Shown: positions 2,187-15,248 of the stretch, piece by piece
Position numbering within the stretch: position 1 is the stretch's first letter
Layout of the letters: each line of letters starts with the position of its first letter
Virus record (IMG/VR): IMGVR_UViG_3300042465_000865
Coordinates: 1-23,608 of that record
From: a virus
DNA length: 23,608 nucleotides
Reading direction: 5' to 3' (one strand)
Made by a program: the position numbers and the translations under genes
The notes under the pieces: generated by a model
Seen by the model: only the letters and a program-made list of their open reading frames with translations
Databases searched by the model: none
Told to the model about the DNA's origin: nothing

Positions 2187-3365
2187 TTAAGCTACTTCCA
2201 GCATTTCGGTGGTAATCATCACCCGCCCTACGGCTCCGTATTTTTTATGGTACGTTATCGCCCAGGCTGCTCGATCCGCAATCCACCCGCCACGCGCTGC
2301 ATAAGCGTCCCTAGCAGCTAGAGTTGGATGTTGAACCACTGTAACCCCATTATATTCTTTTTCGTCACGATGGTGTCTGTGACCGCAGTGGATCTCGCGT
2401 CGAGTAGTTCTGCCCCATTGCTGAGGGAACTGTGCTGCAAACAACAGCGGTAGGGATTCGTTCTTGACCTTATGGCCATGATGAACGCCTAGCATGGTAT
2501 TGCCCCACTCGAATACGTAGAACGGTAGGACGCTATCGTTGACAGTGACGCGAGGTTCTTCTTCGTAATGCACGGAGAATAGATCCGATAGCCAGCCACT
2601 GCTTTCTTCGTCGTGATTGCCTTCTGCGATAATCAAATGCACTTCCTGATGGCGTTGCAATGACATTGCCACCAGTGATCGTATAACACGAATAGCCGAC
2701 TTGCGAAGTTTAGGAAAACGAGTGTCAGCATCTAAAACATGGCGAGACACTGGAGTCACTGGTATCTTGCCATCTGTATGGAGAAAGTCTCCCTGGATGT
2801 TCAGCACTGCCGTGTGAGCCTTTGGGCTTTGGTTTATCATTTGCGCTAAAGCAGCAACAATGGTTTTTTCTGCAATAGACACATTCCAATCACTGCCACC
2901 CTCCTTATGCCACGCCAGCATTCCAAGATGGTAGTCAGTAAACGTGTAGAGGTTGCATAGATACTCCTCACAGCCCTGTGGGGCAACGATAGGGCTTGCT
3001 GGGTCTATCTGATCCTTAAAGCCTTCAACAGCCTCCTTCAGGGCTTCCACGAGCGCCTCATGCGTCAGTGATGCTTTGACCCATTGGCCTGATGGTTTGC
3101 CTTCAGAGTTATAGTAGGTGGACACGCCTTTTGTGACGTAGCCGTTTGGTACGGGTCGGGTGAAATCATGCTCTGGTGCATACCCCTGCAACGCCGCCTT
3201 CTTCTTAACTGCGACATGGGCATCACTGGCTGCACCATGATTAATGCCTAACGCGATTGATGCAGCCTTAGCACTGCCATGCAGATTTATTGCCTCAAGC
3301 AATTCACGTTGACGGGGCGTGGCGTATGCAAACAAGCCCTCGTCTATTTTTAGGGAAGCAACCAT
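2187..3365 (-). CDS. Metallophosphoesterase with N-terminal helix-turn-helix
   Basis: With the ATG at 3365 the protein has 392 residues. That start overlaps the previous stop as TAATG; the longer TTG start at 3383 is less likely. Residues about 16-60 form a helix-turn-helix (TPRQRELLEAINLHGSAKA). The C-terminal part has all calcineurin-like metal motifs in order: D144-x-H146, G-D193, G249-N-H-D252, H296-x-H298 and G328-H-x-H331. The family hydrolyses phosphomono- or diesters, and phage members may act on DNA ends or nucleotides. It is the last gene of the late operon, after the spanins, although its type suggests DNA metabolism. The fold is clear; the substrate is unknown. Confidence 0.82.
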   Translation of the reverse strand: MVASLKIDEGLFAYATPRQRELLEAINLHGSAKAASIALGINHGAASDAHVAVKKKAALQGYAPEHDFTRPVPNGYVTKGVSTYYNSEGKPSGQWVKASLTHEALVEALKEAVEGFKDQIDPASPIVAPQGCEEYLCNLYTFTDYHLGMLAWHKEGGSDWNVSIAEKTIVAALAQMINQSPKAHTAVLNIQGDFLHTDGKIPVTPVSRHVLDADTRFPKLRKSAIRVIRSLVAMSLQRHQEVHLIIAEGNHDEESSGWLSDLFSVHYEEEPRVTVNDSVLPFYVFEWGNTMLGVHHGHKVKNESLPLLFAAQFPQQWGRTTRREIHCGHRHHRDEKEYNGVTVVQHPTLAARDAYAARGGWIADRAAWAITYHKKYGAVGRVMITTEMLEVA

Positions 3366-3598
3366 TATTTGCTTTTCGGACAATCAGCCTCGCATAAGCA
3401 AATAAATACGCCATTGTGCAGCTCGACTTCCGCTACCGTTTCAGGCGTGTCTTGCTTTGCGTCATAGGTAATGGGTTTAGCAATAGCGCAATAGCTATTT
3501 ACGGGAACGGTCGAAACGGTCGCGCAGCCGTTCAGTGCGCTCAGGATCAGGGACGATAATAGCAGCTTCGCCAAGTGCGATTTGCTCATTAATAGCAT
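3365..3598 (-). CDS. Rz1-like outer-membrane spanin lipoprotein
   Basis: The 77-residue start at ATG 3598 is supported by AAGGAA 7 nt upstream; a GTG at 3661 would add an untypical N-terminus. A lipoprotein signal is clear: a basic start, a hydrophobic core KLLLSSLILSA and a lipobox L-N-G-C25 for signal peptidase II. The mature part is short and starts CATVSTVPV. It contains further Cys residues near the C-terminus (ICLCEADC). Outer-membrane spanins join inner spanins across the periplasm to fuse the two membranes at the end of lysis. The first 104 nt overlap the Rz-like gene in another frame, the classical nested layout. This implies a Gram-negative host. Confidence 0.78.
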   Translation of the reverse strand: MLLMSKSHLAKLLLSSLILSALNGCATVSTVPVNSYCAIAKPITYDAKQDTPETVAEVELHNGVFICLCEADCPKSK

Positions 3599-3707
3599 CG
3601 TTCGTTTCCTTGATTGTTTCCTGACGCCCTTGCTGCTTCCAACGGCTCTCTGCCCAAGCACCCAACAGCTTATCCAGAATGCCCAGTAAGAGCGTCAGGA
3701 ACTTCAT
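3495..3707 (-). CDS. Rz-like inner-membrane spanin candidate (70 aa)
   Basis: The start at ATG 3707 overlaps the holin stop as TAATG. The product has a hydrophobic N-terminal helix (MKFLTLLLGILDKLLGAW) and then a long charged helix (SRWKQQGRQETIKETNDAI). It ends in a very basic tail with ERLRDRFDRSRK. One membrane anchor followed by a periplasmic coiled-coil region is the design of an i-spanin. At 70 residues it is shorter than lambda Rz (153). The Rz1-like lipoprotein gene begins inside it, which supports the pairing. Assignment rests on layout rather than family similarity. Confidence 0.7.
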   Translation of the reverse strand: MKFLTLLLGILDKLLGAWAESRWKQQGRQETIKETNDAINEQIALGEAAIIVPDPERTERLRDRFDRSRK

Positions 3708-3889
3708 TACTCTGCGGACTCTACTACTGGCTGCTTGCTTATTACTGACCATACAGCAACGCCGATGGTGGCAACCGCGCCAGCCAATGCTTCAGCCGTT
3801 GCACCGTCGATGAGACCTTTACCGGCAAGATAGCCAAAGCCAGCAGCAGCAAGTGTACGAACGATTCCAAACAATTGATCTTTATTCAT
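3707..3889 (-). CDS. Pam3-gp28-type putative holin (60 aa)
   Basis: The start at ATG 3889 has GGGAAG 5 nt upstream and lies 1 nt after the endolysin stop; a longer start at 3988 would run inside the endolysin gene. The product begins MNKDQLFGIVRTLAAAGFGY. It has two hydrophobic stretches (about residues 6-22 and 30-47) around a short turn with GLIDGATAEA, ending in an acidic tail. This pattern matches small Pam3-gp28-like putative holins. Holins form lesions in the inner membrane that release or activate endolysin and set lysis time. Position between endolysin and spanins supports this. Confidence 0.78.
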   Translation of the reverse strand: MNKDQLFGIVRTLAAAGFGYLAGKGLIDGATAEALAGAVATIGVAVWSVISKQPVVESAE

Positions 3890-3890
3890 G

Positions 3891-4283
3891 TTACTTCCCT
3901 TTCGGATAAAAAGCCCAAGGTAATTCCCAATGTGGGCCATCCTTAAAAGCTCGCCACGAACCGCCCCAGGTGAGCGGAACCTTTTCATCTGCCGCAGCAG
4001 CTTTAACGATTTTAGCTAATCTATGGTACATGGGCCAGTCCCAAGATACCTTGCCATCAATCAGCGGAGCAAGATCGACTGCGTGTCCAGTAAGGTGGCG
4101 AGACTTCATTGTCCTCGATGCGCCCTCTGCAACCAATTTACGCTGCCGTTCAAGAGTGCGAAGACCTTCAAGCACAGTAAAGTCTAAGTCAGATATTGCC
4201 GCAGCCCTCTTTACAACGCGCACTAGATCAGGGTGGACACCCTCAAGCCGTGAAAGGCTACGTTGACCAAGAATTATACTCAT
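3891..4283 (-). CDS. M15-family endolysin (L-Ala-D-Glu or D-Ala-D-Ala peptidase type)
   Basis: The protein has 130 residues from ATG 4283, preceded by AAAGGT. That start overlaps the previous stop as ATGA; an upstream start at 4346 would run through the membrane-protein gene. Zinc-site motifs of peptidase family M15 are complete: SRH63-LTGHAVD70 and D115-G-P-H118-W-E. There is also a conserved EGLRTLERQ segment at 39-47. Such enzymes cut the peptide stems of peptidoglycan. There is no signal peptide, so release needs the holin. It sits directly before the holin and spanin genes, as in a lysis cassette. Confidence 0.9.
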   Translation of the reverse strand: MSIILGQRSLSRLEGVHPDLVRVVKRAAAISDLDFTVLEGLRTLERQRKLVAEGASRTMKSRHLTGHAVDLAPLIDGKVSWDWPMYHRLAKIVKAAAADEKVPLTWGGSWRAFKDGPHWELPWAFYPKGK

Positions 4284-4462
4284 GGAGTACCTTTGAGTAA
4301 GATGCTTAACAAGATGCCAATTAGCAGCATAATGATTGTGCCACAAGCCGTGATACCAATACTCTCTAGGCGTTTCATCCTAGCGCAGATGCTTTCGTAT
4401 CTAAAAGCGCAGACTTCTTCATGAGTGTTGAGTTGAGCCTGTGTTCTGTCAATCGTGTTCAT
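4280..4462 (-). CDS. Small one-span membrane protein of the lysis cassette (60 aa)
   Basis: The product has a soluble helical N-terminal half with polar heptads (MNTIDRTQAQLNTHEEVCAF; RMKRLESI) and one strong C-terminal membrane helix (GTIIMLLIGILLSILL). This resembles XhlA-like proteins and other small phage membrane proteins found beside endolysins. It is coupled by ATGA to the endolysin gene. It could be a second holin, an antiholin or a membrane recruiter of the endolysin. The first residues (NTIDR) are encoded by a 10-nt sequence that is also found in its leader. Confidence 0.6.
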   Translation of the reverse strand: MNTIDRTQAQLNTHEEVCAFRYESICARMKRLESIGITACGTIIMLLIGILLSILLKGTP

Positions 4463-12949: not shown

Positions 12950-13309
12950 TTAATCACCATATCTTTCACGAGAACCACTTACGTCAGGAGCCTTACCCCA
13001 GCCAGGGAAGGTTATATGAATTGTGCCCTTATTGCTAGGAATAGCCTTAGAACCTGGATACTTCTGTTTAACAGCAGCAATAGCACTTTGAGTTGACATT
13101 CCCTTTGGTGGGAAAAAGTCTAATGCGTCACCTATGGGATGCGATCCCGTCTTTGTTTTCGTTAATCCCTGTGCGACTAATGCCTCTTGATGCCTTTGCG
13201 TTCTGAATCCACTAGTAGGACGGAACCCAAGCTTACCAAGGTCAGCAATAGGGTTGATGTCACTGCCCTTGAAAGTTACCAGACGGTGTTTCCGTCTGAC
13301 CTCCAGCGT
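12950..13309 (-). CDS. M15-like peptidase domain in +1 frame after the gp20-like gene (no own start codon)
   Basis: This frame is open from 13309 to its TAA at 12950-12952. The part downstream of the gp20-like stop encodes 103 residues beginning DINPIADLGKLGF. Numbered from that Asp, it shows S17-GFRTQRHQEALVAQG, then S40-H41-PIGDALD48 (the HxxGxAxD zinc motif of family M15) and I81-H82-ITF as the third ligand. There is no ATG, GTG or TTG before the conserved part, so a separate gene is unlikely. It stops 2 nt before the gp16-like ATG. Expected as a C-terminal peptidoglycan peptidase fused to the gp20-like protein by a +1 shift near 13262, or split by a one-base error in the GGG at 13266-13268. 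Confidence 0.75.
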   Translation of the reverse strand, partial: TLEVRRKHRLVTFKGSDINPIADLGKLGFRPTSGFRTQRHQEALVAQGLTKTKTGSHPIGDALDFFPPKGMSTQSAIAAVKQKYPGSKAIPSNKGTIHITFPGWGKAPDVSGSRERYGD

Positions 13310-14729: not shown

Positions 14730-15248
14730 TTAAACTAGCCTCTTAATAAATGAGTGTTCGCTTGGTCTGTATCCATTGCGAATATAAAGGTTGGACATTC
14801 TATCGCCATTTAATGCGTCAATTGACTTCATCTGGATCGAAAGAGCGCCGCGATCTTTAGCTTCTTCTTCCATCCGCTTCTTCAACTTCATGCCAATGCC
14901 AGGATAGTTGGATTCAGGATCAGCCCACCAAAACAATTCTTCACAAGAGATGTGCGAGTGATTGAAATATACTGGGCTAAGAACGAGCGAACCAAATGAA
15001 ACGAACCTACCGTTGACTTCAGCAACCATGCAAATGAAATTAGGTTGGCCAATAAATCCCTCTAGCGACAATATGCAGTCATCTATGTCATACTCTAGAA
15101 TGTCATCCCAGAACGCTTGCTCATGGAATAAGCAGCCTAGATACGCAATCTGCTCGGCATCATCAATAGTTGCATGACGGATTATAGGCAAAGTAACCCT
15201 ACCTTGATAAGCTAATTCTGTATTGGAATCTGCGTTACTTTCCGTCAT
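14730..15248 (-). CDS. GNAT-family N-acetyltransferase (172 aa)
   Basis: A GNAT fold is indicated by an N-terminal strand and helix (LPIIRHATIDDAEQIAYLG, residues 20-38). Central strands with MVAEVNGRFVSFGSLVL follow, then the acetyl-CoA loop and helix N114-YPGIG119-MKLKKRMEEEAKDRG (a form of Q/R-x-x-G-x-G), and a final NLYIRNGYRPSE segment. The substrate is unknown and could be a host or virion protein or a small molecule. It lies within the structural gene series before the ejection proteins, as an inserted cargo gene. The ATG at 15248 overlaps a small upstream frame as ATGA and has GAGAG as its binding site. Confidence 0.82.
   Translation of the reverse strand: MTESNADSNTELAYQGRVTLPIIRHATIDDAEQIAYLGCLFHEQAFWDDILEYDIDDCILSLEGFIGQPNFICMVAEVNGRFVSFGSLVLSPVYFNHSHISCEELFWWADPESNYPGIGMKLKKRMEEEAKDRGALSIQMKSIDALNGDRMSNLYIRNGYRPSEHSFIKRLV

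Follow-up and report, generated by a model that had tools for sequence, protein, structure and literature searches.

How is a peptidase domain made when its reading frame offers no usable start codon? The question is raised by a virus record of 23,608 bases, analysed here over its whole length (the window), in which a gene for a putative DNA ejection protein on the minus strand is overlapped by a +1 frame encoding an M15-type peptidase domain (Table 1). A conserved +1 split, selection in the +1 frame, a conserved Shine–Dalgarno sequence, a co-varying hairpin, a slip codon and the swapping of domains behind one signal are the comparative grounds on which we propose that some gp20-like ejection proteins very probably acquire a virion-borne lysin through programmed +1 frameshifting at TTT-C, with a Shine–Dalgarno sequence and a hairpin upstream as the stimulator. 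The original prediction from this DNA, that a frameshift fuses the peptidase to a share of the ejection protein molecules, is thereby strongly supported by conservation, coding selection and an RNA signal; the signal itself (GGAGG, hairpin and TTT-C) was missed in that prediction.

Table 1. Positions in the window of the genes and signal elements discussed
Feature	Position	Strand	Remarks
gp7-like DNA ejection protein, 223 aa	14057..14728	-	Gene preceding the zero-frame ejection gene; ORF, phrog_598 match 5e-30
Zero-frame gene, gp20-like DNA ejection protein, 264 aa	13263..14054	-	TGA 13262-13260; Gly/Thr/Ser/Pro linker at end
Internal Shine–Dalgarno sequence GGAGG	13300..13304	-	Same place in 141/149 distinct +1 splits
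Hairpin CAGACGG-AAACA-CCGTCTG	13280..13298	-	Window fold z = -2.98 and co-variation in homologues
Spacer GTAAC, 5 nt, hairpin to slip codon	13275..13279	-	Contains E-site codon AAC
+1 slip site TTT-C	13271..13274	-	tRNA-Phe on UUU proposed to re-pair with UUC
+1 frame, M15-type peptidase domain	12950..13270	-	TAA 12952-12950; PHROG endolysin 8.6e-6
gp16-like DNA ejection protein, 1048 aa	9801..12947	-	Next gene; ORF, phrog_770 match 1e-13
Separate M15 endolysin	3894-4346	-	Pfam Peptidase_M15_4 2.9e-11; PHROG endolysin 2.6e-63

A peptidase frame without a start codon

The zero-frame ORF spans 14054-13260 in the ORF list, and no stop interrupts the +1 frame between 13309 and 12953, a run of 119 codons of which 103 lie past the zero-frame TGA. 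Its upstream bound is a TAA at 13312-13310, and the ATG of the gp16-like gene follows the peptidase stop by 2 nt, a geometry that had been read correctly from the outset. The accompanying claim that the frame has no start codon holds as far as the catalytic motif, ahead of which no ATG, GTG or TTG occurs, but not beyond it: an ATG is present further on, within the peptidase domain (PPKGM), too late to serve as a start.

The middle gene lies between the gp7-like and gp16-like genes and next to tail genes, in the order 7-20-16 of P22, and the gene order is identical in Pseudanabaena phage Pam1 and Sphingopyxis phage VSN-002, in which the middle gene is annotated as a DNA/protein translocase of the P22-type injectosome. 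The gene of the window has no Pfam or PHROG match to any ejection family and no detectable sequence match to P22 gp20. It is thus gp20-like by synteny and not by sequence, and the identity first suggested for it stands only in that positional sense. We know of no lysin on, or frameshifting in, P22 gp20. A GNAT-like acetyltransferase gene (14730-15248, minus strand) directly precedes the ejection genes, and an acetyltransferase is also annotated near the corresponding place in Pam1 and in Pseudomonas phage PfAn1.

The extra domain carries the motifs expected of an M15 peptidase, which had been noticed at the start: SHPIGDALD (SxHxxGxAxD), a later His in IHITF and an upstream SGFRT. Four residues (R24, H45, D52 and H86) are invariant across 20 aligned sequences (alignment A3). 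The domain fails Pfam cut-offs and so has no Pfam match, and its best PDB profile match, to an M15C enzyme, is weak (E = 0.3). An AlphaFold model of the domain (pLDDT 81) placed M15C enzymes at ranks 1 and 28 in Foldseek, not significantly (best E = 0.035). We classify the domain as M15-like by its motifs and its PHROG endolysin match; enzyme activity is inferred. The window thus holds two M15-type domains, this one and the lysis endolysin, and after the latter come overlapping ORFs (3365-3661 and 3495-3752, minus strand), one with a lipobox-like LNGC, that resemble an Rz/Rz1-type spanin pair.

The split recurs and the shifted frame is under selection

Programmed +1 frameshifting should leave marks that sequence can reveal: overlapping ORFs, conserved in relatives, whose +1 downstream frame has no start of its own; within the overlap, a P-site codon able to re-pair in the new frame; and a conserved candidate stimulator. 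A scan of IMG/VR with the 107-aa peptidase stretch of the window, giving matches at 65-94 per cent identity, found 60 viral loci encoding a relative. In 59 of them an ORF precedes the stretch, which is +1 relative to it, and the stop of that ORF lies 5-14 nt past the start of the +1 slip-site codon; the exception, L059, is -1. Further hydrolase types were sought by protein alone, without use of the DNA element (alignments A1 and A2), and these element-independent scans brought the total to 149 distinct +1 splits, with a median frame overlap of 26 codons and a zero-frame stop within 4 codons in 94 per cent of loci. Across 139 loci, no position shows a conserved start codon; in 47 of them, one being the window, ATG, GTG and TTG are all missing from the stretch that links the hairpin to the catalytic motif. 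The first mark is therefore present in 149 loci.

In the two main peptidase groups, pN/pS is 0.235 and 0.198 in the +1 frame, compared with 1.5-2.6 in the other frames, which argues that the +1 frame is translated and under purifying selection. Many of the loci are related, so nominal statistics overstate their independence. One 68.9-kb contig, IMGVR_UViG_3300042314_000177 (L048, L081, L174 and L228), carries the element twice, in non-identical copies with different hydrolases, and may stem from two phages, from a joined assembly or from duplication of the module.

A Shine–Dalgarno sequence, a hairpin and a TTT slip codon

The junctions share a constant layout: GGAGG, about 1 base, a hairpin, about 5 bases, TTT followed by C or T, and the zero-frame stop a few codons on. 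A zero-frame TTT-C/T falls inside the overlap in 145 of 149 splits, when the frequency of TTT-C/T in those genes predicts about 25; the second mark, a P-site codon able to re-pair, is met at this site. GGAGG precedes the TTT in 141 of 149; the distance is 25 nt in 119 loci, 28 nt in another 16 and 22 nt in a further 4, and the hairpin-to-slip spacer is 3-6 nt in all homologues, mostly 4-5 (the value depends on how the closing pair is counted). Codon choice points to the same site: across 53 GC-rich loci, Phe elsewhere in the gene is encoded by TTC 290 times and by TTT 62 times, and the slip site is TTT in all 53.

The zero frame reads TTT TAA in L045 and L048 and TTT TGA in L193; with a stop directly behind TTT, the shift must occur on or before TTT. 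These loci set the slip site at TTT-C and displace the GGG run to which attention was originally drawn. TTT-T permits perfect re-pairing in +1, and in the prfB context UUU ranks with the more slippery codons (PMC10885494). Most loci have an ordinary sense codon (CGC, CAA or CCC) in the A site, neither a stop nor obviously slow; a stop is found there in only 2 of 141. Two other routes were set aside, a -2 shift because TTT-T ahead of the stop re-pairs perfectly in +1 and makes it unneeded, and transcriptional slippage because no homopolymer is shared by the +1 sites on inspection.

The hairpin is conserved as pairing. Among 110 distinct homologous elements the mean folding z is -3.4, against 0.0 for neighbouring segments, and their inner sequences carry 32 different 5' arm hexamers (CAGACG, GCGGGG, GCGCCC, CCGGCG, GGTAGT, GCTGGC and others). 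At least 5 contiguous base pairs are possible in 108 of the 110, a number that falls to about 37 once halves are swapped between loci. In a fixed register, pairing scores 558 compared with 374 +/- 12 when partners are shuffled, and still 271 compared with 170 +/- 9 when all CAGAC/GTCTG stems are excluded. Shared ancestry inflates these figures, but the variety of stems in its own right attests to repeated compensatory change. The peptide encoded by the element is a free-form Gly/Ser/Thr/Pro linker found in 88 versions, and because it varies so freely the protein does not explain the conservation of the element. As judged from co-variation, the hairpin is conserved at the RNA level, and with the Shine–Dalgarno sequence it supplies the third mark, a conserved candidate stimulator; stimulation itself is inferred. 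Rfam returned no match to the element, and searches of open-licence PMC papers returned no account of this signal, nor of any ejection protein given a lysin by frameshifting, so the signal appears not to have been described previously.

Interchangeable hydrolases behind one signal

Domain swapping was surveyed by pattern scans for the CAGAC-stem version of the element, after which the +1 frames were read. Behind the element lie three M15-like types, lytic transglycosylases and an NNPGNLR-type domain. In relatives, the M15-C type passes Pfam M15_3 (4e-9) and the transglycosylases match Pfam SLT (7e-10 and 3e-8). The NNPGNLR-type domain, seen in the +1 frame of L181 (about 1490-1840) and L186 (about 1790-2150), has no Pfam match and is possibly another class of virion muramidase on the same signal. 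The proteins upstream of the element are also diverse. By these comparisons, the same signal serves interchangeable, predicted wall-cutting domains in over a hundred related phages and one cultured phage.

A scan anchored on the gp7-like neighbour found 27 loci with the +1 element and 36 without it. In most of the element-free loci the gp20-like protein is longer and a hydrolase is absent. Among close relatives sharing the ejection protein, that of L405 stops where the element would begin, again with no hydrolase, and those of L394 and L417 carry another small C-terminal domain in place of the hydrolase. The idea that extension-free phages house the hydrolase in the gp16-like gene was not supported by searches of gp16-like proteins, which found none in nine element-free or three element-bearing relatives; the only match, to SLT in PfAn1, was marginal.

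In-frame and -1 variants of the junction

The same junction is found in other arrangements. In VSN-002 the ejection protein is fused in frame to an M15-B domain and the element is absent. Five loci (L309, L310, L314 and L348, around 3000, and L059, around 5000) use a -1 route: the zero frame reads ...CCT TTC..., the hydrolase is in -1 and the canonical heptamer C CCT TTC is present. None of the five has a strong hairpin beside the slip site, which fits the published attenuation of -1 and stimulation of +1 shifting by such a hairpin (PMC6321510). The junction has thus apparently switched in evolution between +1 and -1 recoding.

Ten further loci (L083, L143, L196, L207, L278, L282, L288, L291, L312 and L350) have the hydrolase in the zero frame yet keep the element; two spurious matches in the gp7-like gene (L106 and L142) were left out of this set. 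In nine of the ten the +1 frame stops 2-4 codons past TTT, compared with a control rate of 0.135 per site, and a bacterial copy, L375, has the same in-frame pattern with a nearby +1 stop, by inspection, as an eleventh case. Since the ten amount to about five independent groups, the evidence is strong without being astronomical. With a +1 stop within four codons, slippage in these fusions would make a short form. The simplest reading is that in-frame loci use the shift to produce the short form, and that the phage has a use for both, regardless of the frame in which the enzyme lies.

Alternatives to frameshifting

The peptidase might instead be made as a separate protein, either from a non-standard codon that GGAGG serves through the hairpin or by re-initiation after the zero-frame stop. 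A hairpin can shorten the distance between a Shine–Dalgarno sequence and a start codon, as in T4 genes 25 and 38, and the strong, conserved GGAGG and the closeness of the zero-frame stops would suit such a scheme. With no conserved start, and none of the three usual start codons between hairpin and catalytic motif in the 47 loci noted above, we consider it very unlikely; it also leaves the near-universal TTT-C/T, the -1 heptamers, the in-frame fusions and the +1 stops of in-frame loci unexplained.

The Shine–Dalgarno–hairpin might also be mainly a DNA-level element, for example a recombination site at which hydrolase cassettes are swapped, its placement relative to the frame being secondary. 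Hydrolases of different families directly behind the element, with diverse proteins ahead of it, are in keeping with this. But a fixed recombination site would keep its sequence, whereas the stems vary freely with pairing kept, as are spacing and TTT-C/T, and the clustering of +1 stops in in-frame loci goes unexplained, which makes the proposal highly improbable. Virtually nothing remains of the suggestion, made originally for the GGG run, that a sequencing error or recent one-base insertion split a simple fusion gene: the two parts are indeed fused in frame in VSN-002 and the in-frame loci, but the split persists in 149 distinct loci, most without GGG there (for example TTTCGCTGATGG and TTTCCCTGACCC), as well as in the complete genome of one isolate; the shifted frame is under purifying selection and the junctions have no homopolymer in common, so the gene is neither misread nor broken.

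Proposed mechanism

Programmed +1 frameshifting remains the preferred reading, and every criterion for it that sequence can test is met. Most ribosomes would reach the TGA and release the 264-aa protein. With UUU in the P site, the hairpin would re-form behind the ribosome, beside the E site; if the hairpin is bulged out, GGAGG would come to about 6 nt from the P-site codon and could pair with the 16S anti-Shine–Dalgarno sequence. Either duplex may then drive tRNA-Phe forward from UUU to UUC. Upstream hairpins beside the E site and internal Shine–Dalgarno duplexes do stimulate +1 shifting on 70S ribosomes, the hairpin effect being seen in the 70S system only with RF2 absent (PMC6321510). Published duplex-stimulated +1 systems have a hungry or stop A site, and the mostly sense A-site codon of the phage signal counts against the parallel. 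Slippage itself, its rate, the action of the hairpin and Shine–Dalgarno sequence, enzyme activity and presence in virions are all inferred, with no experiment, protein or ribosome-profiling data.

A fixed fraction of the virion ejection protein would in this way carry a lysin that cuts the wall at DNA entry; because a separate M15 endolysin is encoded in the window, entry rather than lysis is the probable role of the frameshifted copy. For P22, the numbers of gp7, gp16 and gp20 molecules injected are about 12, 12 and 30 (PMC8402733); with about 30 gp20 molecules per virion, as in P22, a modest rate of shifting would be enough to arm a few. A 'dosage switch' in virions is plausible, the virion content being inferred. 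More generally, we think it likely that this is a natural, general and portable +1 signal, in which a Shine–Dalgarno sequence bridged by a hairpin to UUU-C provides a socket for unrelated peptidoglycan hydrolases in a large phage group, the ratio of lysin-bearing to plain protein being held even where the hydrolase is in the zero frame (the shift then giving the short form) or follows a -1 signal.

Relation to known recoding systems

The phage signal shares with prfB (release factor 2) a +1 slip on a U-rich P-site codon and stimulation by an internal Shine–Dalgarno sequence, but the prfB-type layout is not met: a hairpin stands between the two elements, the linear distance is 25 nt and not 3 nt (PMC5009743), stop codons seldom occupy the A site, and the outcome would be a virion protein of two domains rather than autoregulation. 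It is this difference in distance that makes the bridging idea an inference. Synthetic refolding upstream hairpins adjacent to the E site likewise stimulate +1 shifting, also on 70S ribosomes (PMC3639245, PMC6321510), but are engineered and related to a -1 attenuator, whereas the phage use looks natural, widespread and combined with a Shine–Dalgarno sequence. Phages also place portable Ig-like C-terminal domains on part of a structural protein through -1, +1 or in-frame fusion (PMC5009743); here the addition is a peptidoglycan hydrolase on an ejection protein, with one dedicated stimulator for many domains. As in Escherichia coli dnaX, the shift in in-frame loci would yield a short form, although the phage signal is +1 rather than -1 and its polarity differs among relatives. 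The lambda G-T tail chaperone frameshift similarly fixes the proportions in which a phage protein is made short or extended, but it is -1, has no upstream hairpin and its products are absent from mature virions.

According to a 2024 tool paper, forward frameshifts have had no general motif assigned to them (PMC10885494). The present element is a compact forward-frameshift motif with strong comparative support that could go into annotation tools at once, and it indicates a natural setting for the upstream-hairpin +1 stimulation so far shown with synthetic constructs. It would also reveal a hidden, mis-annotated class of virion-borne lysins and offers a testable answer to how podoviruses set the number of ejection proteins bearing a wall-cutting enzyme. 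For the question of why the ratio matters, the variants of the junction (-1, +1, in-frame and polarity-swapped) amount to a natural experiment.

Bacterial copies and a cultured phage

Among bacterial genomes there was one exact match to the element, in Sphingopyxis bauzanensis. Across 398 genomes of its family we found two +1 copies, that of S. bauzanensis included, and one in-frame fusion, and a class-wide bacterial scan gave nothing beyond the copies in that family. Searching isolates with the element DNA gave only chance matches; isolates were found through their proteins.

Pam1 (ON014753) carries the element (AAAGGAGGTCAGGCGGCTCCCCCGCCTGCTGGCTTTTCGG...), with the stem CAGGCGG/CCGCCTG, compensatory to CAGACGG/CCGTCTG, and TTT-T as the slip site. 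Its zero frame is Pam1_14, and its +1 frame encodes an M15-B domain ending GPHWHFVLGE. The GenBank gene Pam1_15 (ON014753 11366-11515; L210 3630-3779) is an internal fragment of this +1 M15 frame following Pam1_14, and is an annotation error. The paper on Pam1 states that mass spectrometry was used to identify its structural proteins (PMC9382816). Being in culture, Pam1 makes the system testable now.
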